Assembly (NCBI RefSeq): GCF_017355785.1 | Contig: NZ_JAFEWE010000007.1 | Span: forward strand, 1 to 64,000 | DNA: 64,000 bases | Reading direction: 5' to 3' | From: Desertivirga arenae | GTDB taxonomy: Bacteria; Bacteroidota; Bacteroidia; Sphingobacteriales; Sphingobacteriaceae | Shown here: one piece after another, positions 14,336-44,765 of the stretch | Layout: the number at the start of each line of letters is the position of its first letter | Position numbering within the stretch: position 1 is the stretch's first letter | Position numbers and translations under genes: made by a program | The notes under the pieces: generated by a model | Databases searched by the model: none | What the model was told of the DNA's origin: nothing | The model's input: the letters and a program-made list of their open reading frames with translations, nothing else

Positions 14336-14401
14336 AAAACTTACTTATAAATTTTAGCTAAAGATTTCTGCTCTCTAAAGCTTTGTCTTATTCATAAAAA
14401 C

Positions 14402-15709: not shown

Positions 15710-15716
15710 GATGTCT

Positions 15717-17636: not shown

Positions 17637-17660
17637 ATGCTGTTTATCTTATGATTCTTA

Positions 17661-18299: not shown

Positions 18300-18375
18300 G
18301 GATCAAAAACCGTTTCTGTGAGATTCTAAATCGAAGGTATTTAATTATAGGATGATAAAATCGGGATGGCGAAGC

Positions 18376-18387
18376 GCAAACGTTTGC
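18376..18387. promoter_or_regulatory. LacI-type operator palindrome, copy 1
   Basis: GCAAACGTTTGC is a perfect 12-base palindrome of the classical LacI/GalR operator form with a central CpG. It lies 77 bases upstream of the first gene of the minus-strand nag-like operon. A near-identical site is at 18614 and a 10-base core at 22651. Confidence 0.65.
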
Positions 18388-18613
18388 AAGTAATCTTATA
18401 AGTGATGTAACTAGGATTATTGTAGGAATAAAGCTTGAAAAAAGAGAAAGGTTGCGCTTAGAACAGAGAGAAATTGGGGGGAGATATCAATCAATTGCGC
18501 TCATTTCTTCTATGCTTATAAGTCTTGAGGAGATGAAGCTCGTTTAGCCCGCCTTTTTTTGCTCATTTAAGACTTGTATTTCTATTTTAAATCAAAAGCT
18601 CCCTCCTTCTTAC

Positions 18614-18625
18614 GCAACCGCTTGC
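18614..18625. promoter_or_regulatory. LacI-type operator palindrome, copy 2
   Basis: GCAACCGCTTGC differs from the palindrome at 18376 in two symmetric positions and keeps the GCAANCGNTTGC pattern. It lies about 105 bases before the plus-strand kinase start, so the two sites bracket the divergent promoter region. No other gene is seen in the roughly 420 bases between the divergent starts. Confidence 0.5.
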
Positions 18626-18718
18626 TCAGTGCATTTTGCCGTCAACGCAAATTTTAATTTCAATAATTGCATCAGATTCCACTTGAATGATGGAAAAACT
18701 AAGAATATAATTAAGATT

Positions 18719-19855: not shown

Positions 19856-19868
19856 AACTCGAATAAAT

Positions 19869-21266: not shown

Positions 21267-21293
21267 CTTCTAATATAGTCAATATAATGGGAG

Positions 21294-21327
21294 CCGGAGA
21301 GAAGAAATTCCTCCGGTTTTGTTTTTA
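21294..21327. terminator. rho-independent terminator between convergent genes
   Basis: CCGGAG (21294-21299) pairs with CTCCGG (21311-21316), followed by TTTTGTTTTT. It separates the mutase gene from the convergent LacI gene. Confidence 0.7.
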
Positions 21328-21334
21328 CAAGAAC

Positions 21335-22363: not shown

Positions 22364-22650
22364 GATAAAGGGTGTTGAAGAAGACAGGAATGCCCCGTGT
22401 AGTTATTAATAAAGCTTGAAAGTAATCTATTTGGAGTAATATCGGAACATCTTTGAAAAATCAATCGTTTGCGCTAGTATTTAGAGGCAATAAGGGCTTG
22501 TTTGAGACCATGCGTGCCGAATCTTTTTATTGATCCACTTTAAACTATTTCCGGTAGTTATAAAGCTCCTTCTGAGGCTCGCCCACCTTATCTATCCATC
22601 AGTCTGCTTAGCATTCTCCTTTTCTGATGCGAAACTTCAGTAAGTTTTCT

Positions 22651-22660
22651 CAAACGTTTG
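22651..22660. promoter_or_regulatory. LacI-type operator core, copy 3
   Basis: CAAACGTTTG is a perfect 10-base palindrome, with GCGC continuing on the right side as in the nag operator region. A half-site (CGTTTGCGC) lies at about 22466-22474. The rest of the roughly 860 bases from 22364 to 23225 holds no gene that I can see; it is AT-rich and ends in the promoter of the next operon. Confidence 0.5.
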
Positions 22661-23126
22661 CGCAATCTTACAGCGCTGAATTTCATAGCTTCTCCTGAGT
22701 AAAATGCTAGATTTACAATAAGAATAACTAACCAAGGTAGGGCATGCAATTGCCTTAATATAAACTAACATAATTAATGAAGTGCTATAAAATGAATGAT
22801 TTCTTAGCTCAAGTATTTTTCAGCTGATCTTTTAACTTTAATGATTTTGTGCAGTGGCATTGGCTTTTTGCATTTTTTAAGGTTTTCAATACTGATTCTG
22901 ACCCCTTGAGTGCAATGTTTTTTTATTTCTTTATCTATTTGTTGTTGAAACTGGAGTTGGATTCATTTTGGAGGTGAATTCTTATTTAAATATTTACTGG
23001 TTTTGATAAAACGCTCGATTATCTATCTGATGCCTGGTTGTTTTATATCAGAATGTTGTTTTTATCCTATTAATATTCGGGTTTGTCTGTATTTTTTGGG
23101 TTAAATAAAAAAAATATCAAAAATAG

Positions 23127-23225: not shown

Positions 23226-24371
23226 ATGGGGTCAAAGGAATTAAGTAATTTAAAAGTAGAGTCAATACTCGAGCAGTTCCAGATTGATGGGCAGGCGGCC
23301 GAGATACATCCTTATGGCTCTGGTCTTATTAATGATACTTTTTTTGTAAAAAATAAAAGTGTCGGTTATGATGATTACCTGCTGCAGCGTATCAATCACC
23401 ATGTATTTAAGGATGTTTCAGGATTAATGAAAAATGTCGATCTTATTATCGCTCATCTTAAAAAGAAGACAGCATCTGATCGTAAAGTTCTTACTCTAGT
23501 TCCCACTAAAAGTGATGAACTTTTTCATATGGAAGCGGACGGTTCCTTCTGGCGCTTGTATGTTTTCATTCCGGGAACTAAGAGTTATGATTTGGTAACA
23601 ACCGAGAAGCAGGCCTATGAGGGAGGTCGGGCTTTTGGAAACTTCCAGCTGCTACTTTCGGATATGGATGTTGCCTTATTAAAGGAAACAATCATAGATT
23701 TTCATAACATTAAAAAGAGGCTGCGCGATTACTACACGGCTTTGAAAGAAGACGTAGCCGGCCGTGCTGGCAGTATTACCCAGGAAGCCCTTTTTATTAA
23801 AGATCGTGAAGATGCGATGTCAATAATTTTTAATTGGGGAGAGTATGGCCTTATACCTCAACGGGTAACGCACAATGATACGAAATTCAATAATGTGCTA
23901 TTTGATGAAAATAACAAGGTTCAATGCGTAATAGACTTTGATACCGTTATGCCTGGTCTAGTAGCGTATGACTTTGGGGATGCCATCAGAACAATAATCA
24001 ATACCGCTAATGAGGATGAAGCAGATCTTGATAAAATTCAAATTAATATACCTCTTTTCGCAGCCTATGCAGAAGGATATTTAGAAGAAGCAGGAGAATT
24101 TCTCTCTCCAAAGGAAGTAGAATCTCTTTCTCTCGGCGTATTGCTTTTGCCTTACATGCAGGGAGTGAGGTTTCTTACGGATTATTTAGACGGGGATAAG
24201 TATTTCAAAACAACCTATCCCGAGCATAACCTGATAAGGGCCCGGACCCAGTTTCAGCTCTTAAGAAAACTTGAAGAGCAACAAGCAACACTGGAGCAAA
24301 TATTAACCACTGCGGCGGCTAATAATGTAGGAAAGAAAAATATCGGGACAGTGAGTGTAGGTACAAATTAA
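23226..24371 (+). CDS. APH-fold sugar kinase, NahK-like (copy 2)
   Basis: The start is placed at the ATG 23226 (MGSKELSNLK); a GTG at 23193 would put the N-terminus inside the operator-like sequence. The product has 381 residues and is clearly paralogous to the kinase at 18719. It has YGSGLINDTFFV, HNDTKFNN (catalytic), DFDTVMPG (metal) and YDFGDAIRTIINTA, and both share LDGDxYxKxxxxxHNL near the end. It probably phosphorylates an N-acetylhexosamine at C1, which is an assignment from fold and context. It leads the operon that continues into SusC 38 bases downstream. Confidence 0.7.
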   Translation: MGSKELSNLKVESILEQFQIDGQAAEIHPYGSGLINDTFFVKNKSVGYDDYLLQRINHHVFKDVSGLMKNVDLIIAHLKKKTASDRKVLTLVPTKSDELFHMEADGSFWRLYVFIPGTKSYDLVTTEKQAYEGGRAFGNFQLLLSDMDVALLKETIIDFHNIKKRLRDYYTALKEDVAGRAGSITQEALFIKDREDAMSIIFNWGEYGLIPQRVTHNDTKFNNVLFDENNKVQCVIDFDTVMPGLVAYDFGDAIRTIINTANEDEADLDKIQINIPLFAAYAEGYLEEAGEFLSPKEVESLSLGVLLLPYMQGVRFLTDYLDGDKYFKTTYPEHNLIRARTQFQLLRKLEEQQATLEQILTTAAANNVGKKNIGTVSVGTN

Positions 24372-24409
24372 ATATTCATGAATTAAGAATTCGCCAAATA
24401 AAAAATATT

Positions 24410-27400
24410 ATGGACTGTAGTTATTTACTCAACAAAAAACTCTTTTACGCTTTCTTACTGCTTGCGAGTTTGCAGTATTCAGATGCAGCTGCAAAAAGTG
24501 GCGTAAGAAATACTGTTGGCATCAGTCAACAAGTTACAATTACTGGAACTGTCCTTGACCCTAATGGGATGACGCTGCCTGGCGTTTCTGTATCTGTTAA
24601 AAATTCCAAGGTTGCTACTTCAACTAACAACCAGGGTAAATTCTCAATTACTGCTAAAGAAGGAGATGTGTTGGTATTTAAAATGGTGGGATTTGAGGCG
24701 AAGGAAGTTACAATAGGCAGTGAGGCAGCGTTAACCATTCGTTTGCAGGAGTCTAATACAAATTTAAATGAGGTAGTAGTAGTAGGTTATGGAACCCAGA
24801 AGAAAAGGGACCTTACTGCAGCAATTTCTTCGGTTAAAACAAGTGATCTGGTGATGTCTTCAGGGCCAGAAATTGGCAATATGCTAAAAGGTAAAGTACC
24901 GGGATTAACAATCCGCCAAAATAGTGCACAGCCAGGAGGAGGGCTCGATATTCTTGTACGGGGCGCCGGCTCTATTAACGCTAGCAATCAGCCATTATTT
25001 GTTGTAGATGGATTTCCAATATCAGATTTGCAGCAACCAGGAAGCGGGAATCGTTACAACGGCGGTACTCAAAGTATTCTGAACTCTTTTAATCCTAATG
25101 ATATTGAGTCTATTGAAGTATTAAAAGACGCCAGTGCAACAGCTATTTACGGATCAAGAGCAGCAAACGGGGTAATTTTAATTACTACGAAACGGGGAGC
25201 AGAAGGAAAGCCGAAAATTGATTACATGAATAACTTTTCCTTCCAAAAGTATAATAACTCCTTCGATGTATTGCCTCTGAATGAATGGATGCAGGTAAGA
25301 AACGAGGCGAAATACGAAAAATGGATGTGGGATAACAAGGTTTTTCCATACGGAACTGAAACTGTAGCGTCATTAGCGTCGAGAAGTGAGCCTGTAGTAT
25401 ATCCTGGAAATCCCTATACTCAAAAAGCGATTGATAATGTTGGTGAAGGAACGAATTGGATGGATCTGGTAATGCGAAACGGTTCAACTAAGCAGCACAA
25501 CCTTACCGCTTCCGGCGGAACTAAAAGTACACGTTACCTCCTGTCAGGGAACTATTATAATCAGGATGGGGTGGTTAAAAATTCCGGATTTAAACGCTAT
25601 TCATTTCGCGCTAACGTAGATCAGGAGATCAATAAATACCTGAAGCTGGGTGTAAATATGACAGCTAGCCGCATAGACAATAATAATAGTCAGCTAGGCG
25701 GAGATCAATTTGAAAACTCAGGTGTTATTCGTGCTTCAATTCAGCAGGGGCCTCATATTCCTGCCCTGGACGAAAACGGTAATTATCCGATTAATCCGGA
25801 CCTTGCTTTACAGCCAAATCCTTATTCGCTGCTTACTATAGCAGACCAGGGAAGAATTGAACGGATGCTGTTAAACTCCTACGTTGATATTACTCCGTTC
25901 AAGGGTATGGTAGTTAAGCTTAAAGCTGGAGTGGACCGCGGATACTCAAAACGTGAGACTTATATTCCAACCACTACTGTAGCTGGTAAGCTCGAAAATG
26001 GAAGAGCTTCTGTTTCAAATCTTGATAAGGATGATTACTTGTTGGAGGCAACAGCGAATTATTCAAAAGTGCTGGGAGGCCATAAAATAGATTTATTGGG
26101 AGGTGTTTCGCAACAAAAATTCATCAATCGCTTTAGTTCGACTGGCAGTACCGGATTTATCACCGATGCTTTTCTTTGGAACAACCTTGGGGCTGGAAGC
26201 AATCTTCAAACACCATCATCTTACGGGCCTGAGAATGTTATTGCCTCTTATTTCGGCCGGGTTAATTATAACTACAAAAGCAAATATCTGCTTACGTTCA
26301 CCCTTCGTACAGACGGAGCCAGCGTATTTGCAAGAAATAATAAGTGGGGAACGTTCCCATCGGCAGCCGTTGCCTGGAACGTGGTGGAAGAACCATTTTT
26401 TAGCGGTATAAAGAACGTAGTATCTCAATTAAAACTTAGGTTAAGTTATGGCCAGACAGGTAATGCTCAGATAAACAGTAATGCTTTTGCTGCTTATAGT
26501 GCGTTTCCAGCGTGGTTAAGCGGAGAAGAAACCCGCCAGATTGGAGTAGCCCTTTCCCGACTTGAAAATCCTGACTTGAAATGGGAAACGACTACTGGTG
26601 CCAACCTCGGAGTCGACTATTCTTTATTTAATGGCCGTGTGGAAGGATCTTTCGAGCTCTTTAATAATGTAATTTCTGATTTGCTTGATACCAAGCCTCT
26701 TAATTCCTATCAGGAAGTTAGCTCTATTATAGCAAATGTTGGTAAAACAAGAAGCCGAGGAGTTGAATTTAGCATCAATACAAGGAACATTCAAAGGAGG
26801 AATTTCTCCTGGCGGACGATGTTAAATCTTTCAAGGTACAAAGACACCTGGTTGGAAAGAGCCCCAGACTGGAAGCCGTTAGTTTACCAGAGTGAGAAAG
26901 ATCCGATAAGAGCAAGATATACTTACATTGCTGATGGAATACTTCAGACAGGTGATCCCGTTCCTGCTTCTCAACCGGGTCTCATGCCTGGTATGATTAA
27001 GATCAAAGACTTGGATGGCTATGTTCGGGATGCAAATGGAAACCCTGCTGTAGATGGAAATGGAAGATTTCTGAGAACGGGTTCTCCTGACGGAATTATT
27101 GATGCTGCGGACCAACGGATGGAAGGAACAACAGATCCAAGTTTAATGGCTGGTTTAACAAATATTCTGACGTACAAAAATTTCAGTTTAAACTTTGATT
27201 TCAATGGACTTTTTGGACGAAAAATGGCCGATCCTAATTATGTAACGTATGGTTTTAGTGCTTATGGCATTGAAGCACAGGGATATGGTGGCTTAAGGTC
27301 AATAAAAGACCGTTGGACACCAACGAACCCATCTACAACCAATCCAAGTTCATTCTGGGGCTTTTCTCCAACTGGTGCCGTTGGCGACTTTTTCATGCAG

Positions 27401-27616
27401 GATGCCTGGTTTGTTCGTTTGCAAAATGTTTCGCTGGGATACAATTTACCTACAAGGTTATTGAAAGGAGTATTTAGTTCAGCCAGAGTACATGTTGATG
27501 CACAAAATTTATTTGTCATTACGCCTTATAAAGGTGTTGATCCGGAAACAGATTCTTACACTGCAGCTTATCCGAACATTCGTACATATACAGTAGGTCT
27601 TAACTTAAGTTTTTAG
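24410..27616 (+). CDS. SusC/RagA-type TonB-dependent outer-membrane transporter
   Basis: This 1068-residue protein has a signal peptide, a carboxypeptidase-like beta-sandwich (VTITGTVLDPNGMTLPGVSV, residues about 42-120), then the TonB-box region (NEVVVVGYGTQKK) and the plug (GPEIGNMLKGKVPGLTI, LFVVDGFPISD, IEVLKDASATAIYGSRAANGVI). The beta barrel ends in YTVGLNLSF. It has no STN domain, so it is not expected to signal to an anti-sigma factor; its operon is marked by LacI-type operators instead. It imports a glycan with the SusD partner encoded 22 bases downstream. Confidence 0.95.
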   Translation: MDCSYLLNKKLFYAFLLLASLQYSDAAAKSGVRNTVGISQQVTITGTVLDPNGMTLPGVSVSVKNSKVATSTNNQGKFSITAKEGDVLVFKMVGFEAKEVTIGSEAALTIRLQESNTNLNEVVVVGYGTQKKRDLTAAISSVKTSDLVMSSGPEIGNMLKGKVPGLTIRQNSAQPGGGLDILVRGAGSINASNQPLFVVDGFPISDLQQPGSGNRYNGGTQSILNSFNPNDIESIEVLKDASATAIYGSRAANGVILITTKRGAEGKPKIDYMNNFSFQKYNNSFDVLPLNEWMQVRNEAKYEKWMWDNKVFPYGTETVASLASRSEPVVYPGNPYTQKAIDNVGEGTNWMDLVMRNGSTKQHNLTASGGTKSTRYLLSGNYYNQDGVVKNSGFKRYSFRANVDQEINKYLKLGVNMTASRIDNNNSQLGGDQFENSGVIRASIQQGPHIPALDENGNYPINPDLALQPNPYSLLTIADQGRIERMLLNSYVDITPFKGMVVKLKAGVDRGYSKRETYIPTTTVAGKLENGRASVSNLDKDDYLLEATANYSKVLGGHKIDLLGGVSQQKFINRFSSTGSTGFITDAFLWNNLGAGSNLQTPSSYGPENVIASYFGRVNYNYKSKYLLTFTLRTDGASVFARNNKWGTFPSAAVAWNVVEEPFFSGIKNVVSQLKLRLSYGQTGNAQINSNAFAAYSAFPAWLSGEETRQIGVALSRLENPDLKWETTTGANLGVDYSLFNGRVEGSFELFNNVISDLLDTKPLNSYQEVSSIIANVGKTRSRGVEFSINTRNIQRRNFSWRTMLNLSRYKDTWLERAPDWKPLVYQSEKDPIRARYTYIADGILQTGDPVPASQPGLMPGMIKIKDLDGYVRDANGNPAVDGNGRFLRTGSPDGIIDAADQRMEGTTDPSLMAGLTNILTYKNFSLNFDFNGLFGRKMADPNYVTYGFSAYGIEAQGYGGLRSIKDRWTPTNPSTTNPSSFWGFSPTGAVGDFFMQDAWFVRLQNVSLGYNLPTRLLKGVFSSARVHVDAQNLFVITPYKGVDPETDSYTAAYPNIRTYTVGLNLSF

Positions 27617-27638
27617 TCCTATCCATAATAAAAAGAAA

Positions 27639-29102
27639 ATGAAAAAATTTCTATTTGCACTAACGTCTATAGTGTTGTTACTGGGTAGCTGCACAGAAGA
27701 CCTTGTTTCGATTGATTACTCCGAGATAAATCCAGCTATATTCCCTAAGTCAGAGTCTGATATTCAGGCCATGGTTAATGCAGCTTATTATCCTCTTAGG
27801 GGCGCCTATAGTGATGGTATTTTTTCTACATCAGAAAAAGGAGTGATGTTCATTTCAGATGCTACCACTGAAATTCTTTACGGCCCCTATGGAGACCAGC
27901 AAAAGGCCACCCTCCATAATTACAGGCCCGAAGATGCCCCTTTCACCCGGTATTATGATGATTTTTACAATAAGATAAGCCGTATGACTGTTACTATCGA
28001 TCAAATCGAGAAGTCAACAGTTTCTGAGTCTCTAAAGAAAAGAGCTATTGCAGAAGTACGCTGTGCCCGGGGGCTTCTGGCCTATACCCTATTTGATCTT
28101 TACGGTCCGCTGGTAATAGCACCTTTAGAGCTTTTACAAAATCCATTAAAAGAGGAGCCACTTGCCCGATTGACAAGCCAGGAAACCGTAGATTTTATTG
28201 AAGCTGATCTCATTGCTGCTGCTGATGGACTTCCAGCACCCTCGGAAGCTGAATATGGGCGCTTCAATAAGGCTTTAGCGAAAATGATTCAAATCCGTTT
28301 AAACCTGCACGAGAAGAAATGGGATAAGGTTTTAGCCTTAAGCAATGACATCATCGCATATCAGTATTATAGCCTTGACGCCGATTATGCAGGAATGTGG
28401 AATCTTGATGGCGCTAAAAATAGCAAGGAAGTGATTTGGGCCATTCCTTGCGACTATGCCGGCACTAGCGAAAATCAATGGCAACTGATGGTGCTTCCTG
28501 CGGTGTTTGCTCCTAAAGGTGGTTTCGGAACCATCCAAAGTACCTGGTATTTCTACGATAGTTTTGAAAGTAACGACAAACGAAAGACAAGGCTGATTGC
28601 AGAGTTTACTGGTACGGATGGTATTACTTACAGCAGGACAAATCCTGGAAGTTTAATGAATTATGGTCCTATTCCGCTAAAAATTCATCCGGATGCGGAG
28701 CGTACCACCGGACTTACAACGGTAGATATCATTATGTATCGCTATGCAGACGTCTTATTGTCAAAAGCTGAGGCGATTGCTAACATTTCAGGTCCTAATC
28801 AAGAGGCTATGAATCTGGTGAACATGGTGAGAAAAAGAGCCGACCTTGGAGATAAGCAGCTTGCTAATTATAGTGCACTTCCAGCCTTCAATGATTTGAT
28901 ATTACTGGAAAGAAGCCATGAGTTCTGGTGTGAGAATGGCCAATATCGAGCTGACCTAATCAGACATGGAAAGTTTGTTTCCCGCACTCAGCAAGTAAAA
29001 GGTTCAAATTTTACAGCTCCTCATAAAGTCCTTTTCCCGTTTTCACCCGCAAGAATTGCGGAGGGTAAAGGGAAATTTATTCAAAATCCAGGTTATAACT
29101 AG
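27639..29102 (+). CDS. SusD/RagB-type glycan-binding lipoprotein
   Basis: The 487-residue protein has a lipoprotein signal with LLGSC (Cys18). The SusD features are present: helical TPR-like repeats, ALAKMIQIRLNLHEKKWDKVLALSND in the middle, and YRYADVLLSKAEAIA with VRKRADL and LLERSHEFWCENGQYRADLIRHG near the end. It caps the SusC transporter and captures the glycan at the cell surface. The ligand is unknown; the operon content suggests an amino-sugar glycan. Confidence 0.93.
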   Translation: MKKFLFALTSIVLLLGSCTEDLVSIDYSEINPAIFPKSESDIQAMVNAAYYPLRGAYSDGIFSTSEKGVMFISDATTEILYGPYGDQQKATLHNYRPEDAPFTRYYDDFYNKISRMTVTIDQIEKSTVSESLKKRAIAEVRCARGLLAYTLFDLYGPLVIAPLELLQNPLKEEPLARLTSQETVDFIEADLIAAADGLPAPSEAEYGRFNKALAKMIQIRLNLHEKKWDKVLALSNDIIAYQYYSLDADYAGMWNLDGAKNSKEVIWAIPCDYAGTSENQWQLMVLPAVFAPKGGFGTIQSTWYFYDSFESNDKRKTRLIAEFTGTDGITYSRTNPGSLMNYGPIPLKIHPDAERTTGLTTVDIIMYRYADVLLSKAEAIANISGPNQEAMNLVNMVRKRADLGDKQLANYSALPAFNDLILLERSHEFWCENGQYRADLIRHGKFVSRTQQVKGSNFTAPHKVLFPFSPARIAEGKGKFIQNPGYN

Positions 29103-29131
29103 TATTTTATTGCGAATTTAATATAAAAGCA

Positions 29132-30517
29132 ATGGCAACGGATTCAAATTATTATAAAAGGTTACTTCTGGGAGTAGTGACAATGTGCATAATGGGATGG
29201 GTAACCTCCTGTAAGAAAAATAGTCCCGCGCAGAAAGAGGAAGAAGAGACTAAATTGAATTATGAGATCTCTTATGATATTTTTCCCAATCCAGAGAGAG
29301 GATTTACAAAAACAATTCCTACCTATTCTGACGGTACCGGTTTAAATCTCACTCAGCTAAAAACTTTTAGAAGCCAGAATATCACTTTGGTTGTTCGTGT
29401 CTTTTATTTAAATCTGTACAAAAACAAGCAACTCGATCAGCCAATACTTAATTTGATTCAAACCGACCTTGATAAACTTCGCGAGGCGGGACTTAAGGGT
29501 GTGATTAGATTTGCTTACACGGATGATATTAACGGCACTGATGCTCCGCTTTCTATAGTAGAACAGCACATTGATCAGCTAAAAAGCATCGTCGATATAA
29601 ATAAAGATGTGATCGCATTTGTACAGGCTGGCTTTATCGGCGCCTGGGGAGAATGGCACAGCTCTAGTAATGGTTTGGCTACAACCGAGAATGAACGCGC
29701 TGTATTAACCAAATTACTATCAGCGTTTCCAAAGGAGATCCTTCTTCAGGTGCGTACTCCTCGTTATAAACAGCAGGTATATAACACCACCTCCGCTTTA
29801 ACAAAAGAGCAGGGGTTTGGGGGAACAGATATCGCGCGTGTTGGGCATCACAACGACTGTTTTTTATCAAGCACCGATGATTATGGAACTTATAGCAATG
29901 TAGGGGCTGAGAAGCAGTATATCAGTAGTGAAGGATTGTACGTGCCGGTTGGCGGTGAGACTTGTCCTCCGCTTGGGGGCTTTTCACCTAACTGCCTGGA
30001 GGGGCGTAATCAGATGAAGCTTCTGAGATGGACTTATATCAACACGGATTACTACCAGCCAACGCTAAGCGCATGGAAAGCGTCAGGTTGCTTTGAGGAA
30101 TTCGAAAGAGGACTGGGATATCGCCTTGCTTTGGTAAATTCCAAATTACCCACCACTGCCACTGTAAATAGCTCATATCCTTTCGCTGTTGATATAACAA
30201 ACAACGGATATGCTCCTGCATATAATAAGAAGGTTACGAGCCTTGTATTGAAAAATAAAACTACAGGAAGTTATTCTGAGATTAAATTAAACTATGACAT
30301 AAGGGACTGTAAGCCTTTAGCCACAGCCTCTATTGTGGAAAATCTAAGTCTGGCTGGAATACCTGCAGGTGAGTATGCGCTATATCTAAAAATTGCTGAT
30401 CAATCTGATCGATTAAAAGCCAGGGCAGAGTATTCTGTTAGAATGGCAAATAAAAATACATGGACGGAAGAGAATGGAGGAATGAACAATCTTTTGTCAA
30501 GCTTACAAATTAAGTAG
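29132..30517 (+). CDS. DUF4874/DUF4832 surface or periplasmic protein (copy 1)
   Basis: The 461-residue protein has an N-terminal lipoprotein-like signal (VTMCIMGWVTSCKK). The N-terminal DUF4874 domain is marked by PNPERGFTKT and a TIM-barrel-like series (VIRFAYTDD, IAFVQAGFIGAWGEWHSS, LLQVRTPRYK). The C-terminal DUF4832 domain has GHHNDCFLSSTDDYGTY and YVPVGGETCPP. The acidic and aromatic residues in FIGAWGEWH and HNDCF look like active-site motifs, but no activity is assigned to these families to my knowledge. A paralogue lies at 33149, on the other side of the GH109 gene. It is probably a glycan-processing enzyme of this operon. Confidence 0.85.
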   Translation: MATDSNYYKRLLLGVVTMCIMGWVTSCKKNSPAQKEEEETKLNYEISYDIFPNPERGFTKTIPTYSDGTGLNLTQLKTFRSQNITLVVRVFYLNLYKNKQLDQPILNLIQTDLDKLREAGLKGVIRFAYTDDINGTDAPLSIVEQHIDQLKSIVDINKDVIAFVQAGFIGAWGEWHSSSNGLATTENERAVLTKLLSAFPKEILLQVRTPRYKQQVYNTTSALTKEQGFGGTDIARVGHHNDCFLSSTDDYGTYSNVGAEKQYISSEGLYVPVGGETCPPLGGFSPNCLEGRNQMKLLRWTYINTDYYQPTLSAWKASGCFEEFERGLGYRLALVNSKLPTTATVNSSYPFAVDITNNGYAPAYNKKVTSLVLKNKTTGSYSEIKLNYDIRDCKPLATASIVENLSLAGIPAGEYALYLKIADQSDRLKARAEYSVRMANKNTWTEENGGMNNLLSSLQIK

Positions 30518-30540
30518 TGTTTACGATTTACAACAATTAA

Positions 30541-31401
30541 ATGAGAACGAACTTTATTTTATCAATCTGTGCGGTAGTCATCGTGCTTATTGCTGGCTCT
30601 TGTAAAAAGGAAGAAACAGGTAGTGATACAAAGGCTGTTTTTAGCTATGTGGCTGACGGTTTTCAGGTGAATTTTACAAATTTCTCGAGAAATGCAACGG
30701 AATATATCTGGGAATTTAACGATGGTTCTAACGAGACCTCAACAAAAAAATATCCGCAGCACGTATTCAAGAGCAAAGGCAAGTTTCTTGTCACACTAAC
30801 TGCTAAAAACGGGAATGAATCTAGTGTATTTTCCGATACAGTTACCATCCTCGGTCCCAACATTAAAATTGATGGAGATTTCAAAGATTGGGAAAATGTG
30901 AGCTATTCTCATACTAATGCTGCCAGTGCCGGTGGTAATCTCTTGGCAATGAAAACCTTTGCTACGGATAATAGCATCAATTTCTACCTCGAAGGAACCA
31001 CTGACATGAAAATGGAGATTTTCGATTTATATCTCGATGTAGACAATAATACAGCAACTGGTTTTAATACCTGGCAATATCCAATGGGTTCCGGTTCTGA
31101 ATTTCTGTTGGAAGGAAGCTTTAAAGACGGCTGGGGAGATATGTTCAAACATACTGGTGCGCCAACCGAGTTTGCTTTTACTCCGGTTGCTTCTTTTTCC
31201 GATGTCCTAAGTTACTCCCAGATCAAAACAGTGGGAGGAAAGAATATAATTGAATTCTCCGTGAAGCGGTCGAAATTAGGTACAAATCTTAAGGGCTTCG
31301 TAAATTATTCGATAACAGAACTTACTTCAGGTTGGGCTGCTGTAGGAAGCCTTCCTACTTTCCAAACACCAACGTCTGCCTTTGGAAAGATTGCGTTGTA
31401 A
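30541..31401 (+). CDS. PKD-domain lipoprotein with a CBM-like C-terminal part
   Basis: The 286-residue protein has the lipobox IAGSC (Cys21). Residues about 30-105 form a PKD domain (YIWEFNDGSNETSTKKYPQHVF, then GKFLVTLTAKN). The second half starts with IKIDGDFKDWENV, a pattern seen in CBM9-like/DOMON-like domains, and runs through FDLYLDVDNNTATGFNTWQYP. It should be an outer-membrane surface glycan-binding protein, in the SusE/F position of the operon. The ligand is unknown. About 210 bases separate it from the next gene. Confidence 0.8.
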   Translation: MRTNFILSICAVVIVLIAGSCKKEETGSDTKAVFSYVADGFQVNFTNFSRNATEYIWEFNDGSNETSTKKYPQHVFKSKGKFLVTLTAKNGNESSVFSDTVTILGPNIKIDGDFKDWENVSYSHTNAASAGGNLLAMKTFATDNSINFYLEGTTDMKMEIFDLYLDVDNNTATGFNTWQYPMGSGSEFLLEGSFKDGWGDMFKHTGAPTEFAFTPVASFSDVLSYSQIKTVGGKNIIEFSVKRSKLGTNLKGFVNYSITELTSGWAAVGSLPTFQTPTSAFGKIAL

Positions 31402-31613
31402 TAAACGTTGCAGATTAAAAGAGGCTATACATTTGGTTGTTTTTTGAACAGAGGTGATAAGAGATAATGAACAGAGATAAGAGTCACAATAGTTTAAGGC
31501 GTAATTGTCAACGAGTTCCTGTTCATCCTTATCACTCAATTTAGTTAACGGTTCATTTCTTTAACGATCAGCGGATTACAATCAATCGCCCGAAAATTAC
31601 AATTTTAGAATCA

Positions 31614-32963
31614 ATGCACAGAAGAAGTTTTATAAAAAATAGCACGATGGCGGCAGCCGGATTTGCTATTCTTCCTTCCATTACTTTCGGCATGAGTAAA
31701 TCGAAAGTAAAACTGGGATACATAGGAGTAGGCCTTAGAGGGCGAAATCATATTTCGGAAGGCCTTTTAAGGGATGATGTGGAAATTGTAGCCATCTGCG
31801 ATACACAGGAAAGCTCATTGAAGTTATGCAGAGAGCAATTTCAGCAGGCGGGTAAAAAACTGCCCAAGGAATTTACTGGAGGGGTAGATGCTTATAAGAG
31901 AATGCTTGAAATGAAGGAAATAGAAGGAGTTATCATTGCTACTCCCTGGACTTTTCATCATGATCAGGCGGTAGATGCGATGCAAGCAGGAAAATACGTA
32001 GGCTGCGAGGTGCTTGCAGGCTTAACTTTAGAGGATCACTGGAATATCGTCAATGTTTCAGAAAAGACAGGTATGTCTTATATGACGCTGGAGAATGTTT
32101 GCTATCGTCGGGATGTTATGGCTGTGCTAAATATGGCCCGTCAAAATCTTTTTGGCGAGCTAGTACACTTAGAGGGAGGATATCAGCATGATTTAAGACC
32201 GGTTCTTTTTAACGACGGAGCGCATTTTTATGGACATGGGGTGGAATTTGGTCCGGATAAATCTATAGGTGAAGCGCAATGGAGAACCCAGCATAATATT
32301 GATATGGTAGGAGATATTTATCCTACACACGGCTTAGGGCCATTAATGCCTTTTATCAACATTAACCGGGGAAATCGGATTACAAACCTCGTTTCCTTTT
32401 CCTCCAAAGCTAAGGGCTTGTCAAGTTATGTGAATAAGCTATCACCTGGTCATAAGAACGCAAGCGTCAATTTTAAGAATGGTGACATTACCACTACGTT
32501 ATTAAATTGTGCTAATGGTGAAACTTTAAGTATCCAACATGATACCCATCTACCCCGGCCATATTCCCTCGGTTTTCGAGTCCAGGGTACAGAAGGTTTG
32601 TGGACTGACGCAAATCAATCAATCTACATTGAAGGAAAGTCAAAAAATGAAGATGTTTGGGATCCTGCGGAAGAATGGCTTAAAAAGTACGACCATCCTC
32701 TATGGAAAAAGTATGAGAAACAAGCCGAAGGAGCGGGACATGGGGGAATGGATTGGTTTGTTTTTAATGGATTTGTGGAAGCGATAAAACAAAAAAGACA
32801 AACCCCTATCGATGTTTATGACTCGGTGACAATGAGTGCCATACTTCCTTTATCGGCTAAGTCCATCACGGAAGGAAACATGCCCCAAGACTTTCCTGAC
32901 TTTACAAGAGGCAAATGGAAGACAATGAAGAACACTTTTGCTTTAAATGACAGCGGTTTTTAG
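31614..32963 (+). CDS. GH109 family alpha-N-acetylgalactosaminidase (NAD-dependent)
   Basis: The 449-residue protein has a twin-arginine signal (HRRSFIKNSTMAAAGFAIL) and a Rossmann start (LGYIGVGLRGRNH). The GH109 hallmarks are strong: VAICDT, YKRMLEM, VIIATPWTFH, AMQAGKYVGCEV, LENVCYRRDVMAVLNM (158-174), GGYQHDLR, YPTHGLGP (236-243, His239), NRGNRI, PRPYSLGFRVQGTEGLW and AGHGGMDWFV. GH109 enzymes use bound NAD for an oxidation-elimination-reduction cycle and remove terminal alpha-GalNAc in the periplasm. The plain Gfo/Idh/MocA label would miss this. It lies between two DUF4874/DUF4832 genes. Confidence 0.9.
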   Translation: MHRRSFIKNSTMAAAGFAILPSITFGMSKSKVKLGYIGVGLRGRNHISEGLLRDDVEIVAICDTQESSLKLCREQFQQAGKKLPKEFTGGVDAYKRMLEMKEIEGVIIATPWTFHHDQAVDAMQAGKYVGCEVLAGLTLEDHWNIVNVSEKTGMSYMTLENVCYRRDVMAVLNMARQNLFGELVHLEGGYQHDLRPVLFNDGAHFYGHGVEFGPDKSIGEAQWRTQHNIDMVGDIYPTHGLGPLMPFININRGNRITNLVSFSSKAKGLSSYVNKLSPGHKNASVNFKNGDITTTLLNCANGETLSIQHDTHLPRPYSLGFRVQGTEGLWTDANQSIYIEGKSKNEDVWDPAEEWLKKYDHPLWKKYEKQAEGAGHGGMDWFVFNGFVEAIKQKRQTPIDVYDSVTMSAILPLSAKSITEGNMPQDFPDFTRGKWKTMKNTFALNDSGF

Positions 32964-33148
32964 CCGGAGGACAATAAAAAAATTTTCTTTTACAACAGCT
33001 TTGGGCGAACTGGATATTGACGGAGGAACAAGATTGTTAAATAACCGGGTAGAAAAAGGTGCTGATGAAGTTTCATCCACAAATGCTCCAACACCATAAA
33101 AAAATCATGAAAGAGGAACGCTGCAAAAATATTGAGAAAGGGAACAGG

Positions 33149-34651
33149 ATGATCAATCGAAAAGCAATTCTTATTTCGATAGTTTTTATGGCGTTCTTCT
33201 TTCACCTTACGGGATTCGCACAGGTTAAGACATTAATCTACAGTGAGAGCAGAGATGACATTCCAAATCCGGAACGGGGTTTTTATTTTCCTGCAGCAGA
33301 GCCAGTCGGAGAGCTGTCCGTAGAAAAGCTTAAAAAACTACGCACAGTTTATTCTGCAAAAGCCAGTGCTGATTATTCTACCTGGATAAGTTTAGTTTAT
33401 CGGGGATATCTTCTAACTGATTTCAGAGACAAGCCAATCTCATCACAGTTTCTGGAAAAGTTACAAAAGGATTTTGATGCGGTAAGGTCGGCCGGCCTGA
33501 AAATCGTACTCAGGTTTTCTTATACGGATAAGAGCAAAAATGGTGATTGTCCTGATAAAGCGATATGCCCGCCATATGGTGATGCGCCGAAGGAGGTTGT
33601 CCTGAATCACATTGCTCAACTAAAACCTTTAATCCAACAGAATTCAGACGTCATAGCAGTCGTTCAGGAAGGATTTATCGGTATCTGGGGCGAAAACTTC
33701 TATACAGATTATTTTGGAGATCCATCTGCAAATGGGCGGGGATTTGTTCCGGATAGTAGCTGGAATGACAGAAATGAAGTTTTAATGGCTTTGCTGGACG
33801 CAGTTCCTCAGCAGCGAATGGTACAGGTTCGAACCCCGCAAATCAGACAACGTTTTTTGTCTGGCCCTAATGCTCCGGTTAGTAAAAAACCTTCTGCCTT
33901 AAAAAAGGCATTTGATAGGAGTAGTACCTCAAGAATTGCCTTTCATAATGATTGTTTCCTTGCTAGCTCAGATGATTATGGAACTTATACCGACTACGGT
34001 AATTCTTCTGGTAGACTACAATCAACAAACCTCATCTTGAGAAAATATCTCGAGGCAGAAAGCAAATATTTAGCAGTAGGCGGAGAAACATGCGACGACA
34101 CGTTCAGTCCTCAGAACGACTGTGAACCTTATGGACATGCAATGAAGGAAATGGCGGCAATGCACTACAGTTTCTTAAATGTAAGTTATAATAATTTGGT
34201 GAATAACGATTGGGAAGGGCAGGGATGTATGATAGAGATAAAAAAACGCCTTGGCTATCGCATCGTCCTTAAACAAGCCAAACTTCCAACTGCAGTGAAA
34301 GCAGGAAAGAAAGTGAAGATTGACGTTCAGTTAAAAAATACAGGTTTTGCTTCTCCTTATAATCCCCGGCCGGTTCAATTAGTTCTCAGAGATAGTAAGG
34401 ATGGAAGTATTTACAGAATAGAGCTACAAACTCGTATCCAGAAATGGTATCCGGGCGAAGTTTTTCTGCGAGAATCTGTGAGGTTGCCAAAGGAGATAAA
34501 GAACGGCGATTATGATTTGTTTTTAGGAATGCCAGATGGCTATACGAGTTTGCAGAATCGTCCGGAGTATAGTGTTCGTTTGGCTAATGAAGGTTTGTGG
34601 GAGGAAAGCTCGGGACTGAACAGGCTGAACCACGCAATGAAAGTAAAGTAG
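33149..34651 (+). CDS. DUF4874/DUF4832 secreted protein (copy 2)
   Basis: The start is set at 33149 (MINRKAILISIVF, a good signal peptide ending FAQ); a GTG at 33059 would add a charged leader before it. The product has 500 residues. PNPERGFYFP, IVLRFSYTDKSK, VIAVVQEGFIGIWGENF, MVQVRTPQIR, FHNDCFLASSDDYGTY and VGGETCDD repeat the motif series of the copy at 29132. The two share a scaffold but are clearly diverged. It has no lipobox, so it is probably periplasmic whereas copy 1 looks lipid-anchored. Two such proteins around one exo-glycosidase suggest division of labour on one glycan. Confidence 0.85.
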   Translation: MINRKAILISIVFMAFFFHLTGFAQVKTLIYSESRDDIPNPERGFYFPAAEPVGELSVEKLKKLRTVYSAKASADYSTWISLVYRGYLLTDFRDKPISSQFLEKLQKDFDAVRSAGLKIVLRFSYTDKSKNGDCPDKAICPPYGDAPKEVVLNHIAQLKPLIQQNSDVIAVVQEGFIGIWGENFYTDYFGDPSANGRGFVPDSSWNDRNEVLMALLDAVPQQRMVQVRTPQIRQRFLSGPNAPVSKKPSALKKAFDRSSTSRIAFHNDCFLASSDDYGTYTDYGNSSGRLQSTNLILRKYLEAESKYLAVGGETCDDTFSPQNDCEPYGHAMKEMAAMHYSFLNVSYNNLVNNDWEGQGCMIEIKKRLGYRIVLKQAKLPTAVKAGKKVKIDVQLKNTGFASPYNPRPVQLVLRDSKDGSIYRIELQTRIQKWYPGEVFLRESVRLPKEIKNGDYDLFLGMPDGYTSLQNRPEYSVRLANEGLWEESSGLNRLNHAMKVK

Positions 34652-34723
34652 TAGGGTTATCGAGAAATTTTTTTCTAGTATTTGATATAATATTCCTGAT
34701 GATATATTTCCTAGTTTTTTGGT

Positions 34724-35842
34724 ATGGTTAAACCGGATTCAGCGACAATTCCTAGAGTTTCGAGAATTGCTTCTATTGATGTGTTGCGGGGCGGCATTAT
34801 GATTTTGCTGGCAGCAGAAAGCTGCTTATTATACACCTCACTTAAAGATCAAATTACATCTACTTTAGCCACCGGCATCATTGATCAGTTTTTTCATCAT
34901 CCCTGGCATGGCTTAAGGCTTTGGGATCTGGTTCAACCGGGCTTCATGCTGATAGCAGGGGTAGCGTTGTATGCTTCCTGGAAAGCAAAATCCGAAAAAG
35001 GCCTGAGTTGGACTGCAAACGGCAAAACGGTTTTTCTTCGGTGCCTTAAACTATTTTTCTTCGGCGTAGCTCTACATTGTGTGTATGCGGGAAAATTAGT
35101 TTGGGAGCTTTGGAACGTACTCACACAGCTATCAGTTACCACTCTGATTGCTTTTCTGATAATTCGAGAATCTCACGCCGTTCAACTTTCGATTTCAATG
35201 CTTCTCCTGGTTTCAACGGAATTTCTATATAGATGGTGCGGGCCTACCGGCTTTGATGAGCCCTTCCAGCCTCAACATAATTTTGGTACGTATTTCGATC
35301 TTCTGTTGATGGGCAAGGTTAATTCTGATGGATGGGTTGCTATAAATTTTATTCCAACTGCAGCTCATACTATCTGGGGAGCGCTTTGTGGGCGAATACT
35401 GCTGTCGGAAAAAAGATCGAAAGAAAAAATTCAAGTATTACTAGTAGGCAGTATTACGGGGCTTATTTTAGGTTATGGACTCGATTTTTTCTCAATTACC
35501 CCCATTATTAAGCGAATAAGTACAAGTTCTTTTGTGCTTGTTTCTGGTGGCTGGGTTTTAATTGCTGTTGCTTTTTGTTACTGGTTTGTGGATGTCTGTG
35601 ACTACAGAAAGTATTCCTGGATATTTTCTGTAATGGGGATGAACGCACTTTTTATCTATCTCTTCTTTGAAACAGTTGGTATACAATGGCTCAATCGCAT
35701 TGTCAGAATTTTTGTGGGAGGCTTAGCCTTTCTTTCTATTTCTAGTTTCAGCATCGCTTTGATCTCCTCAATTCTCACTCTTTTTATTGAATGGTATCTA
35801 TGCTATTGGCTACACAAGAAGAAAATCTTTTTTAAGGTATAA
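34724..35842 (+). CDS. HGSNAT-like membrane acetyltransferase (DUF5009/DUF1624 type)
   Basis: The 372-residue integral membrane protein has about ten helices. RIASIDVLRGGIMILL (residues 13-28) is the signature start of the heparan-alpha-glucosaminide N-acetyltransferase/DUF1624 group, followed by FHHPWHGLRLWDLVQPGFMLIAGVAL and NFIPTAAHTIWG. In lysosomal HGSNAT the enzyme passes acetyl groups across the membrane to terminal alpha-glucosamine. Here it closes the operon holding GH109, so acetylation of terminal alpha-amino sugars before hydrolysis is an attractive but unproven role. Many bacterial members are uncharacterised. Confidence 0.75.
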   Translation: MVKPDSATIPRVSRIASIDVLRGGIMILLAAESCLLYTSLKDQITSTLATGIIDQFFHHPWHGLRLWDLVQPGFMLIAGVALYASWKAKSEKGLSWTANGKTVFLRCLKLFFFGVALHCVYAGKLVWELWNVLTQLSVTTLIAFLIIRESHAVQLSISMLLLVSTEFLYRWCGPTGFDEPFQPQHNFGTYFDLLLMGKVNSDGWVAINFIPTAAHTIWGALCGRILLSEKRSKEKIQVLLVGSITGLILGYGLDFFSITPIIKRISTSSFVLVSGGWVLIAVAFCYWFVDVCDYRKYSWIFSVMGMNALFIYLFFETVGIQWLNRIVRIFVGGLAFLSISSFSIALISSILTLFIEWYLCYWLHKKKIFFKV

Positions 35843-44659: not shown

Positions 44660-44765
44660 TTTGTAGGGAAAGTAATTTTATGTATTCAATTATAACCAAT
44701 TAAAACTTAGGCATTATATGATAGAAAATTCTAGCTAAAAACCTGACAGGTTCTTCCGGAAAGCA

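Follow-up and report, generated by a model that had tools for sequence, protein, structure and literature searches.

A probable utilisation locus for alpha-linked galactosamine polymers that carries DUF4874/DUF4832 proteins and an HGSNAT-like acetyltransferase

A cluster of 17 genes in a 64,000-nucleotide stretch of Desertivirga arenae DNA (hereafter the window) is probably a utilisation locus for an extracellular alpha-linked galactosamine polymer that is N-acetylated in part and may contain interspersed galactose (fungal galactosaminogalactan or bacterial Pel). A first-pass annotation had described eight of these genes at 23226–35842, and this set is real and lies where it was placed: the genes for the kinase, SusC, SusD, two DUF4874/DUF4832 proteins, PKD lipoprotein, GH109 and HGSNAT-like protein all have open reading frames and are colinear. 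A start at 23226 proved too narrow. Homologues of the genes at 9661–22363 (LacI, GalE, a GH36-fold protein, MFS, NagB-PIG-L, CBM9, a second kinase, GlmM and a second LacI) recur in the same locus type, and we therefore extended the locus to 9661. Judged by sequence comparison, it is a unit of 17 genes spanning 9661–35842, held together by this recurring neighbourhood and by LacI-type operator sites (Table 1); because the homologues recur together in many genomes, the gene set is no chance assembly. Pfam matches and gene order reveal adjacent SusC and SusD genes accompanied by glycan-active enzymes, as expected of a Sus-type polysaccharide utilisation locus. The operator palindrome recurs in related loci between lacI and susC, often as tandem copies; scans for sigma-70 promoters and terminators gave matches at chance level.

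Table 1 Genes and candidate operator sites of the locus, in window positions
Feature	Position	Strand	Basis
LacI-family regulator (second)	9661..10752	+	NCBIfam LacI-type matches below cut-offs; homologues 55-68% identity in DUF4832 loci L060, L171, L182, L088
GalE, UDP-sugar 4-epimerase	10963..11997	+	TIGR01179 387 bits, cut-off 262
U15, GH36-fold protein, signal-like N-terminus; candidate exo-alpha-galactosidase or alpha-galactosaminidase	12073..14085	+	family profile, AF2 model
MFS sugar transporter	14402..15709	-	Pfam MFS_1; homologues in DUF4832 loci
Glucosamine-6-phosphate deaminase (NagB) fused to PIG-L deacetylase domain	15717..17636	-	Pfam; PRK02122 1030 bits; PHPDDD motif in PIG-L part
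CBM9-like protein	17661..18299	-	PF16011 1.2e-60
LacI-type palindromic operator candidate, divergent CBM9/kinase spacer	18373..18390	.	4 mismatches vs TGCGCAAACGTTTGCGCA
LacI-type palindromic operator candidate, divergent CBM9/kinase spacer	18611..18628	.	4 mismatches vs palindrome
NahK-type N-acetylhexosamine 1-kinase 1 (ATG 18719 or 18722)	18719..19855	+	Pfam APH; 50% identity with kinase 2
GlmM-type phosphoglucosamine mutase	19869..21266	+	TIGR03990 508 bits, cut-off 439
LacI-family regulator	21335..22363	-	Pfam LacI and Peripla_BP; in relatives, homologues adjoin susC
LacI-type palindromic operator candidate, upstream of operon	22647..22664	.	2 mismatches vs palindrome
NahK-type N-acetylhexosamine 1-kinase 2	23226..24371	+	phmmer to solved NahK 4ocu/4wh1, about 1e-80
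SusC-type TonB-dependent transporter	24410..27616	+	Pfam Plug and CarbopepD_reg_2
SusD-type glycan-binding lipoprotein	27639..29102	+	Pfam SusD_RagB and SusD-like_3
DUFa, DUF4874/DUF4832 lipoprotein, likely surface endo-hydrolase	29132..30517	+	PF16116 2.6e-54, PF16173 9.9e-46
PKD lipoprotein, candidate surface glycan-binding protein	30541..31401	+	Pfam PKD; homologues adjoin susD and DUF genes
GH109 alpha-N-acetylgalactosaminidase (predicted)	31614..32963	+	PF21252 1.5e-80; phmmer to 2ixa 5.5e-150
DUFb, DUF4874/DUF4832, ordinary-looking signal peptide, likely periplasmic hydrolase	33149..34651 (ATG 33149)	+	PF16116 3e-63, PF16173 2.1e-43
HGSNAT/NagX-like transmembrane N-acetyltransferase (predicted)	34724..35842	+	family profile to HGSNAT 8vkj 4e-26

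The first-pass annotation had proposed an alpha-linked amino-galactose glycan, partly de-N-acetylated, as the substrate. Such a glycan, with the de-N-acetylation probable, is supported by the linkage of AgaS to DUF4832, by FpGalNase-like GH36 enzymes, by GH114 and PelF-type genes in Flavobacterium, by GH109 and NahK in the window, and by the published protein SIR_1591. AgaS-type genes scoring at least 250 bits, which in all 43 DUF4832 genomes fall under the curated TIGR02815 cut-off, are present in 20 of these genomes, and in 15 of the 20 the distance to DUF4832 is at most 20 kb (0.38 expected). Likewise, in 21 of 32 cases a strong GH109 gene (at least 250 bits) has a DUF4832 match no more than 20 kb away, with 0.31 expected. 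The window's own genome lacks a real AgaS (best match 40 bits), in keeping with a kinase route. Among 78 distant DUF4832 loci, 25 contain none of the labelled marker genes; Flavobacterium L179 and L184 are among these 25 and several sit on short contigs, but others are long, indicating that DUF4832 is not always linked to galactosamine.

Enzymes for amino-sugar release and catabolism fit this substrate. The proposed identity of the GH109 protein as an alpha-N-acetylgalactosaminidase is borne out at the sequence level by its Glyco_hydro_109_C domain, accompanied by GFO_IDH_MocA, and by the match to the solved enzyme 2ixa, in which the stretches ENVCYRRD and YPTHG are conserved; its N-terminus, read by eye, is twin-arginine-like (RRSFIK). 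The NahK-like kinase of the first-pass annotation matches solved N-acetylhexosamine 1-kinases over nearly its full length (kinase 2 to 4ocu, 2.4e-81, over residues 13-354 of 381), and kinase 1 is assigned to NahK solely through its identity to kinase 2. The GalE cluster has nine members in DUF4832 loci, no uridylyltransferase was identified for the GalE step, and the aldolase gets similar scores as a fructose-type and as a tagatose-type enzyme.

GH109 also serves in the use of mucin GalNAc, and the GH109 enzyme and kinase could in principle act on host-type GalNAc from mucin O-glycans or blood group A. The B. thetaiotaomicron locus BT4240-50 (PMC11992087) does so and shares with the window GH109, a NahK-type kinase, an inner-membrane sugar transporter, SusC/D and GalNAc metabolism. 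We consider this reading improbable. BT4240-50 includes an M60-like peptidase and a GH2 beta-galactosidase, neither of which turned up in scans of the 17 proteins of the locus (16 by Pfam, the one encoded at 9661 by NCBIfam), whereas the window has the DUF4832 pair and an acetyltransferase, and neither an acetyltransferase nor HGSNAT is mentioned in the main text on BT4240-50. The predicted GalN acetyltransferase and the FpGalNase-like enzymes of related loci point instead to a de-N-acetylated sugar.

DUFa and DUFb each carry PF16116 and PF16173 domains far over the Pfam cut-offs. The AF2 model of DUFb (pLDDT 92.5) matches TIM-barrel glycosidases in Foldseek, beta-amylases first, at low TM-scores (about 0.35 or less among the top matches to solved glycosidases), and on this evidence DUF4874/DUF4832 models as a TIM-barrel hydrolase. 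Glycosidases of clan GH-A have two conserved carboxylates, located after strands 4 and 7. DUFb residues E180 and E311 (numbered with base 33155 as the start; 2 higher if the ATG at 33149 is used) follow the model strands counted by eye as 4 and 7 and are kept in 61 of 61 and 58 of 61 sequences of the family alignment, and DUFa E174 and D242 stand in columns invariant in 61 of 61. The DUFb sequence has zero matches among solved structures, and the sole match of its family profile there, a sorting domain (0.26), was rejected as unrelated. We also set aside a role for DUF4832 as a mere binding module, since PF16116, at residues 292-510 of a DUFb frame of 530 residues, extends into the barrel. A regular-expression scan for lipoboxes picked out a Cys box in 7 of 12 proteins of the DUFa type and 11 of 39 of the DUFb type, but it overlooks obvious examples and is thrown off by misassigned start codons; signal peptides were therefore judged by eye, and DUFa read in this way has a Cys after its hydrophobic N-terminus.

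Pel is an alpha-1,4-linked GalNAc/GalN polymer, mainly a GalN-GalNAc repeat. SIR_1591, the DUF4832 protein of the Streptococcus intermedius pel cluster, disrupts Pel-dependent aggregates (PMC12345266). The first-pass annotation had left the DUF4874/DUF4832 proteins as uncharacterised processing enzymes; their role need not stay unspecified, because the published DUF4832 protein is a Pel-dispersing hydrolase, and by this analogy DUFa and DUFb are likely endo-hydrolases.

An association of DUF4832 with polymer synthesis extends beyond one phylum. In streptococci and clostridia the DUF4832 gene sits with pel synthesis genes (PMC7112168). The Flavobacterium loci L179 and L184 carry a block of GH114, PelG-like and PelF-type genes arranged tail to tail with DUF4832; the GH114 gene is about 6 kb and the PelF-type gene (DUF3492) about 8.5 kb from it. 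The PelG-like gene of L179, about 7 kb from DUF4832, scores 24.7 bits (cut-off 29), and its 76% identical homologue in L184 has no Pfam match. Some Bacteroidota thus keep DUF4832 beside polymer synthesis; this block contradicts the notion that DUF4832 is tied to Pel synthesis only in Firmicutes, which we dropped, and it slightly raised our confidence in the galactosamine-polymer reading to its present level. Both associations would also suit a locus that recycles or remodels the cell's own exopolysaccharide rather than feeding on one, but for the window this is most improbable: its genome has no match to GH114 (PF03537), PelG or the DUF3492 of PelF, PelG exceeds the cut-off in 0 of 43 DUF4832 genomes (with a weak match in 4), and the locus carries SusC/D, catabolic kinases and LacI regulators. 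A scan of the surroundings of DUF4832 in 12 loci, ten of them Chloroflexi-type, took in 73 of 96 neighbours; the 25 of 136 families shown are mostly housekeeping, with no pel family among them. The other 23 neighbours include every one from L163 and, next to DUF4832, a GalE-type gene each in L185 and L187.

If the locus does serve a partly de-N-acetylated chain, the HGSNAT-like protein may handle its GalN residues. This protein has zero Pfam matches at E<=0.001, and its assignment comes from the family-profile match to solved human HGSNAT. The analogy with HGSNAT drawn in the first-pass annotation holds for the family, the catalytic His-Asp dyad and two CoA-binding arginines but fails at the oxyanion site. 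By positions counted along the alignment, H58 and D68 correspond to the H297 and D307 of the dyad and R22 and R106 to R275 and R345, all invariant in 21 of 21 aligned sequences, whereas Asn286 is replaced by Ser33 in the window protein and Asn occurs at that column in 0 of 21 family members. Roles of these residues, including contact of Arg275 and Arg345 with the CoA diphosphate, are those described for HGSNAT (PMC11199644). Of 34 DUF4832 genomes, 32 have a NagX-like gene about 3 kb or less from DUFb. NagX-like genes occur with GH109 in 22 of 126 loci against 9.1 expected, a statistic that ignores shared ancestry, and with AgaS in 2 loci.

A second type of enzyme may act on terminal GalN in related loci. 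FpGalNase-like GH36 genes are found in 15 of 126 DUF4832 loci, outside the window locus; a profile built from 11 of these 15 matches FpGalNase, an alpha-galactosaminidase, at 3e-105, against 1e-21 for the GH36 that follows, all 15 score at least 674 bits on the FpGalNase-like profile, and an Aga-type gene is seen in only 8 of the 15 loci. FpGalNase-like GH36 and NagX-like genes occur together in 0 of 126 loci although carried by 15 and 46 (5.5 expected, again ignoring shared ancestry). This exclusion is easier to explain if each enzyme provides its own route to one kind of chain end than if both belong to a single route, and judged from their distribution the two enzymes look as if they were alternative answers to terminal GalN.

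The same polymer could also be used in another way, with the acetyltransferase acting on free periplasmic GalN only and an exo-alpha-galactosaminidase, perhaps U15, cutting GalN ends directly. Fitness data place bacterial NagX, proposed to act on free glucosamine, in the use of that sugar (PMC9007349), FpGalNase is one of the matches to the GH36-type fold of U15, and U15 and NagX-like genes are found together in 8 of 126 loci. U15 has zero Pfam matches above cut-off. Its family profile reaches alpha-galactosidases of GH36 (best E 2.3e-5) but misses FpGalNase at E<=1, so that FpGalNase is a fold match only: the AF2 model of U15 (pLDDT 76) is closest to GH36 alpha-galactosidases (8e-26), with FpGalNase at ranks 21-23. 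Moreover, of the loci with U15 (16 of 126) and NagX-like genes (46 of 126), 38 NagX-like loci show no U15, and the mutual exclusion described above speaks for alternative routes. We hold direct cutting with acetylation of free GalN to be possible, if rather doubtful.

Galactosaminogalactan, named in the first-pass annotation as a suitable polymer, remains a good candidate substrate: alpha-galactosidase-type enzymes, GH31 among them, occur in 40 of 126 DUF4832 loci, which suits a galactose-containing chain of this kind. An alpha-GalNAcase role for GH31 was rejected, since a profile built from 12 of its 26 members hits alpha-galactosidases of GH31 at 2e-252; GH31 is absent from the window.

From tool results on gene identities, grouping, operator sites and conserved catalytic residues we infer a pathway, and with it each reaction, the sequence and location of the steps and the precise polymer. 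SusC/SusD and the PKD lipoprotein would hold the polymer chain while surface DUFa cuts it internally; SusC would import the fragments, periplasmic DUFb would cut them further and U15 might take off galactose or GalN ends. The MFS carrier would then bring in GalNAc, the NahK-type kinases would phosphorylate it at C1, GalE would convert it to the gluco form, and GlmM followed by NagB-PIG-L would yield fructose-6-phosphate. A more specific joint scheme strikes us as plausible, though somewhat short of probable: the HGSNAT-family enzyme with its changed oxyanion site would N-acetylate terminal alpha-GalN in the periplasm so that GH109 alone unzips a randomly de-N-acetylated chain, related loci would use an FpGalNase-type alpha-galactosaminidase, DUF4874/DUF4832 would form a further endo-alpha-1,4-(N-acetyl)galactosaminidase family, and the locus as a whole would let the cell feed on galactosaminogalactan from fungi and Pel from bacteria.

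Both galactosaminogalactan and Pel are sticky, cationic polymers of fungal and bacterial matrices. Among the literature matches listed, titles and abstract openings describe no utilisation locus for galactosamine or galactosaminogalactan and none with DUF4832 or DUF4874. If the scheme is correct, two DUF families gain a substrate, new candidates for matrix-dissolving enzymes emerge, and a bacterium would be seen to cope with mixed acetylation through a transmembrane acetyltransferase, acetylating and then cutting in a manner similar to that of human lysosomes. That the acetyltransferase and FpGalNase-like enzymes exclude each other is a directly testable prediction.

Comparison with known systems delimits these proposals. 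The endo-galactosaminidases of GH114, GH135, GH166 and GH191 are also TIM-barrel enzymes and act on galactosaminogalactan and Pel (PMC12054363). DUFa and DUFb have no sequence match to these families in the PDB, Pfam shows only their two DUF domains and no GH114 domain (PF03537), and none of the four families is among the 50 best of 1645 DUFb fold matches. The likeness of SIR_1591 to DUFa and DUFb lies in the shared Pfam domain name and the wording of the paper, and no Firmicutes appear by title among the best 80 of 578 relatives in a scan of genome contigs; SIR_1591 belongs to a biosynthetic cluster for a GalNAc-rich polymer, whereas the window has two paralogues in a SusC/D feeding locus. 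Bacterial NagX resembles the window protein as a short HGSNAT-like membrane protein in amino-sugar loci, but is proposed to use free glucosamine, and the window protein falls far under the NagX equivalog NF046061 (99 bits, cut-off 480). Human HGSNAT, like the enzyme proposed here, transfers acetyl across a membrane to an alpha-linked amino sugar at a chain end, ahead of the glycosidases; its sugar is gluco-configured and its compartment the lysosome, whereas in the window Asn286 is replaced and the acceptor is predicted. Flavonifractor plautii, with FpGalNase, deacetylates before cutting (PMC11762096), whereas we propose that the window's enzymes acetylate before cutting.

All eight genes that the first-pass annotation assigned to one operon are present and colinear where it placed them, carry the domains it named and are separated by 22–72 bp, except for 212 and 185 bp flanking GH109. 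The GH109 protein aligns with 2ixa, a solved alpha-N-acetylgalactosaminidase, at 5.5e-150, and the operon's kinase aligns with solved N-acetylhexosamine 1-kinases (about 1e-80). When 14 proteins of the window were compared by tblastn with the surroundings of DUF4832 genes at 56 loci (L054–L109), the recurring neighbours were DUFb (the second of two DUF4874/DUF4832 proteins), SusC/D (SusC in 41 of the 50 loci with a clustered DUF gene), the PKD lipoprotein (35), homologues of the HGSNAT-like membrane protein, here called NagX-like (34), kinase (20), GH109 (19), NagB-PIG-L (16), GlmM (9), CBM9, MFS and LacI. Because genes upstream of the operon also have homologues in DUF4832 loci, we take seventeen genes as the unit, a larger one than first annotated. 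This locus is probably a feeding system for an extracellular alpha-linked, partly N-acetylated galactosamine polymer, perhaps with galactose.

Palindrome placement backs the same enlarged grouping. A scan of 19 related loci for an 18-base palindrome resembling TACGCAAACGTTTGCGTA (at most five mismatches) located it in spacers adjoining lacI or susC in 14 of them by hand count, in many cases as tandem copies; those spacers lack it in L060, L080, L081, L088 and L091, and coding stretches of the scanned loci hold zero to three matches each. The window contains four palindromes at up to four mismatches, compared with a mean of 0.23 and a maximum of 2 in 60 first-order Markov simulations. Three occupy both expected spacers; the fourth stands alone within a gene and is probably a chance occurrence. 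The window also holds a second SusC/SusD locus.

Coordinates of the features discussed (window positions unless another locus or contig is named)
Feature	Coordinates	Remarks
Whole locus	9661-35842	seventeen genes
LacI regulator	9661	homologues in DUF4832 loci
GalE	10963	TIGR01179 above cut-off; homologues in DUF4832 loci
U15, GH36-fold protein	12073-14085	670 residues; homologues in DUF4832 loci
MFS, NagB-PIG-L, CBM9, second kinase, GlmM, LacI	14402-22363	directly upstream of the eight-gene operon
Palindromes in expected spacers	18373, 18611, 22647	
DUFa, DUF4874/DUF4832 protein	29132-30517	
PKD lipoprotein	30541-31401	
GH109	31614-32963	
DUFb, DUF4874/DUF4832 protein	33149-34651	
HGSNAT-like protein	34724-35842	
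Second SusC/SusD locus	43523-62039	with FecR
GH2-type enzyme of second locus	52747	
Protein of second locus	55722	beta-L-arabinopyranosidase resemblance, below cut-off
Further palindrome	60438-60455	within gene 59769-62039
Third DUF4832-like match in the window's genome	G000:C40:256865-257260	22.8 bits, below cut-off
Distant NagX-like gene, Tannerella forsythia	L168:11403-12527	
pel-like block with DUF4832, Flavobacterium	L179:8009-21375	
pel-like block with DUF4832, Flavobacterium	L184:10004-21383	

DUFa and DUFb are 35% identical, and both carry PF16173 and PF16116 far above cut-off. In streptococci and clostridia a DUF4832 gene is described among pel genes (PMC7112168), and recombinant SIR_1591, a DUF4832 protein, is reported to break up Pel-dependent aggregates with an effect comparable to that of the PelA hydrolase domain (PMC12345266); Pel is given as chiefly an alpha-1,4-linked GalN and GalNAc repeat (PMC9135694). 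With our DUFb model (pLDDT 92.5, 66 sequences), the Foldseek matches listed begin with beta-amylases, followed by other TIM-barrel glycosidases, at low TM-scores (about 0.35 or less for the top matches), in agreement with the fold matches that the SIR_1591 authors give for their own model (PMC12345266). All 61 aligned sequences have E180 and D266, and 58 have E311 (numbering from base 33155; add 2 for the ATG at 33149). Clan GH-A enzymes place carboxylates after strands 4 and 7; by our own strand count, E180 comes after strand 4 of the model and E311 after strand 7, a placement that may correspond to that arrangement. Known endo-galactosaminidase families are listed as GH114, GH135, GH166 and GH191 (PMC12054363), and neither DUFa nor DUFb matched any of the four in the PDB searches made. 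Read by eye, the N terminus of DUFa is lipoprotein-like and that of DUFb of ordinary secreted type, suggesting one cut outside the cell and one in the periplasm. L062, L076 and L088 carry both paralogues with the same N-terminal types, and in many loci with DUFb alone that protein bears a lipoprotein-like Cys (all by eye). Weak DUF4832-like matches comparable to the third one in the window's genome also occur in other family genomes.

The HGSNAT-like protein has no Pfam family at E ≤ 0.001 and scores 99 bits against NCBIfam NagX (cut-off 480); going by sequence, we do not file it as NagX. A 21-row profile of its family reaches human HGSNAT at 4e-26. HGSNAT is described as catalysing through His297 with Asp307, with Asn286 stabilising the acetyl carbonyl and Arg275 and Arg345 binding the CoA diphosphate (PMC11199644). 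In the window protein (ACETYLTRANSFERASE), H58 and D68 correspond to the dyad and R22 and R106 to the arginines, all invariant in 21 of 21 members, whereas the Asn286 position is Ser33 and holds Asn in none of the 21. The annotated analogy with HGSNAT thus holds for the dyad and arginines and breaks down at the oxyanion asparagine, one catalytic site that differs. Of 34 family genomes, 32 (all but G561 and G579) have a NagX-like gene about 3 kb or less from DUFb, and in 34 of 46 loci such a gene sits no more than 300 bp from a DUF gene on the same strand. A recurrent GH36 enzyme is present in 15 of 126 DUF4832 loci (two duplicates removed); a profile from 11 of these members finds FpGalNase at 3e-105 and the next GH36 at 1e-21, and all 15 score at least 674 bits on it. 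FpGalNase is an F. plautii galactosaminidase reported to act once a deacetylase has acted (PMC11762096), so GalN itself is likely a chain end in those loci. The window locus is without such a GH36 and has the HGSNAT-like gene instead. None of the 126 loci carries both genes, where 5.5 would be expected (Fisher p 0.001, for one of 28 pairs tested, uncorrected for ancestry and multiple pairs), and NagX-like genes accompany GH109 in 22 loci (9.1 expected) and occur in all 23 kinase loci. This pattern points to two answers to one problem, direct cutting of GalN or its acetylation followed by GH109 and a GalNAc kinase, with an imperfect split downstream: an Aga-type gene occurs in 8 of the 15 GH36 loci, and NagX-like with AgaS in two loci.

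We tentatively propose, at a little short of an even chance, that terminal GalN would be acetylated in the manner of HGSNAT so that GH109 unzips the chain, with the DUF4874/DUF4832 proteins as endo-alpha-1,4-(N-acetyl)galactosaminidases, GH36 as the alternative in relatives, and galactosaminogalactan and Pel as substrates. The acetyltransferase might instead act only on free GalN in the periplasm; since fitness data led to the proposal that NagX acetylates glucosamine present free in the periplasm (PMC9007349), we leave this alternative where it stood, distinctly below even. NagX-like genes and a sodium symporter also accompany DUF4832 and a nucleotidyltransferase, without SusC/D, in three Planctomycetota loci (L166, L167, L174). 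The distant NagX-like gene of Tannerella forsythia directly follows SusC, SusD and DUF4832; a NagX-related muramate transporter is mentioned for this species (PMC9007349), so its role may be different.

Two Flavobacterium loci bear on the polymer. One or two DUF4832 genes adjoin a pel-like block on the opposite strand, tail to tail, which includes a DUF2194 protein of 1.3 kb residues that may be a deacetylase, a DUF3492 glycosyltransferase (8e-33 in L179, 3e-31 in L184) that we take to be PelF, a PelG-like gene (24.7 bits against a cut-off of 29 in L179; its 76% identical L184 homologue has no Pfam match) and a GH114 gene above cut-off (5.2e-19 and 2.2e-19, respectively). L176 carries the first part of this block, up to the end of its contig. 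These loci, L176 in part, are possibly a Pel-type system in Bacteroidota. GH114 is described as an endo-alpha-1,4-galactosaminidase family (PMC12054363), and the block links DUF4832 with a polymer of alpha-1,4-galactosamine beyond the streptococcal papers. On this evidence we slightly raise the probability of both a galactosamine-polymer feeding locus and the acetylate-then-cut step. Recycling or remodelling of the cell's own exopolysaccharide also gains slightly, remaining very improbable, and a mucin O-glycan or blood-group-A locus loses slightly and is unlikely.

Some DUF4832 loci also encode alpha-galactosidase-type enzymes. GH31, absent from the window, occurs in 26 of 126 loci, and a profile from 12 of these members matches solved GH31 alpha-galactosidases at 2e-252; U15 occurs in 16. 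The window U15 model (pLDDT 76, nine sequences) has a GH36-type fold, with alpha-galactosidases at 8e-26 and FpGalNase at ranks 21–23; at the sequence level its profile finds alpha-galactosidases at no better than 2e-5. GH31 or U15 is present in 40 loci, 33 of them also with GH109, GH36, NagX-like, AgaS or kinase. The presence of these enzymes would favour the polymer first guessed, galactosaminogalactan, which is built from Gal, GalNAc and GalN; published Pel is described as GalNAc and GalN only (PMC9135694). Among 78 distant loci with a clustered DUF gene (from the best 80 of 578 relatives of the DUF4832 profile in named genomes), AgaS-family genes occur in 15, PfkB kinases in 17, class II bisphosphate aldolases in 14 and GatZ/KbaZ in 7, at least two of these in 17, and no labelled marker in 25. 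Jointly the markers suggest a galactosamine route to tagatose phosphates, each cluster being named through one representative: AgaS scores 355 bits (cut-off 529), GatZ/KbaZ 555 (cut-off 569; PF08013 well above at 584), and the aldolase about equally as fructose-type and tagatose-type. In 43 genomes behind 44 distant loci, picked after the neighbourhoods had been seen and hence not blind, 28 have some AgaS-type match, none above cut-off; 20 have one of at least 250 bits, and in 15 of these a DUF4832 gene is no more than 20 kb away (0.38 expected). The 34 genomes of the window's family that have long DUF4832 matches carry 32 GH109 genes of at least 250 bits; for 21 of these genes a DUF4832 match is no more than 20 kb away (0.31 expected), compared with 3 of 21 weaker relatives close by. 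In Chloroflexi-type loci (L152, L153, L161, L162, L164, L165, L178, L185, L187) the genes around DUF4832 are for the most part housekeeping ones, judged from 73 of 96 neighbours, with a GalE-type gene nearby in L185 and L187.

A true AgaS is absent from the window's genome, where the best match reaches 40 bits. The GalNAc pathway runs from GalNAc-1-phosphate through UDP-level epimerisation to GlcNAc-6-phosphate, then deacetylation and deamination. Here NahK-type kinases would convert GalNAc to GalNAc-1-phosphate, GalE would epimerise at the UDP level, and GlmM and NagB-PIG-L would serve the steps at GlcNAc-6-phosphate and beyond. We rate the locus as a polysaccharide utilisation locus of known type, new in its proposed acetylate-then-cut step; the closest described locus is BT4240-50, in which BT4240 has been published as a GalNAc kinase of the APH type (PMC11992087).
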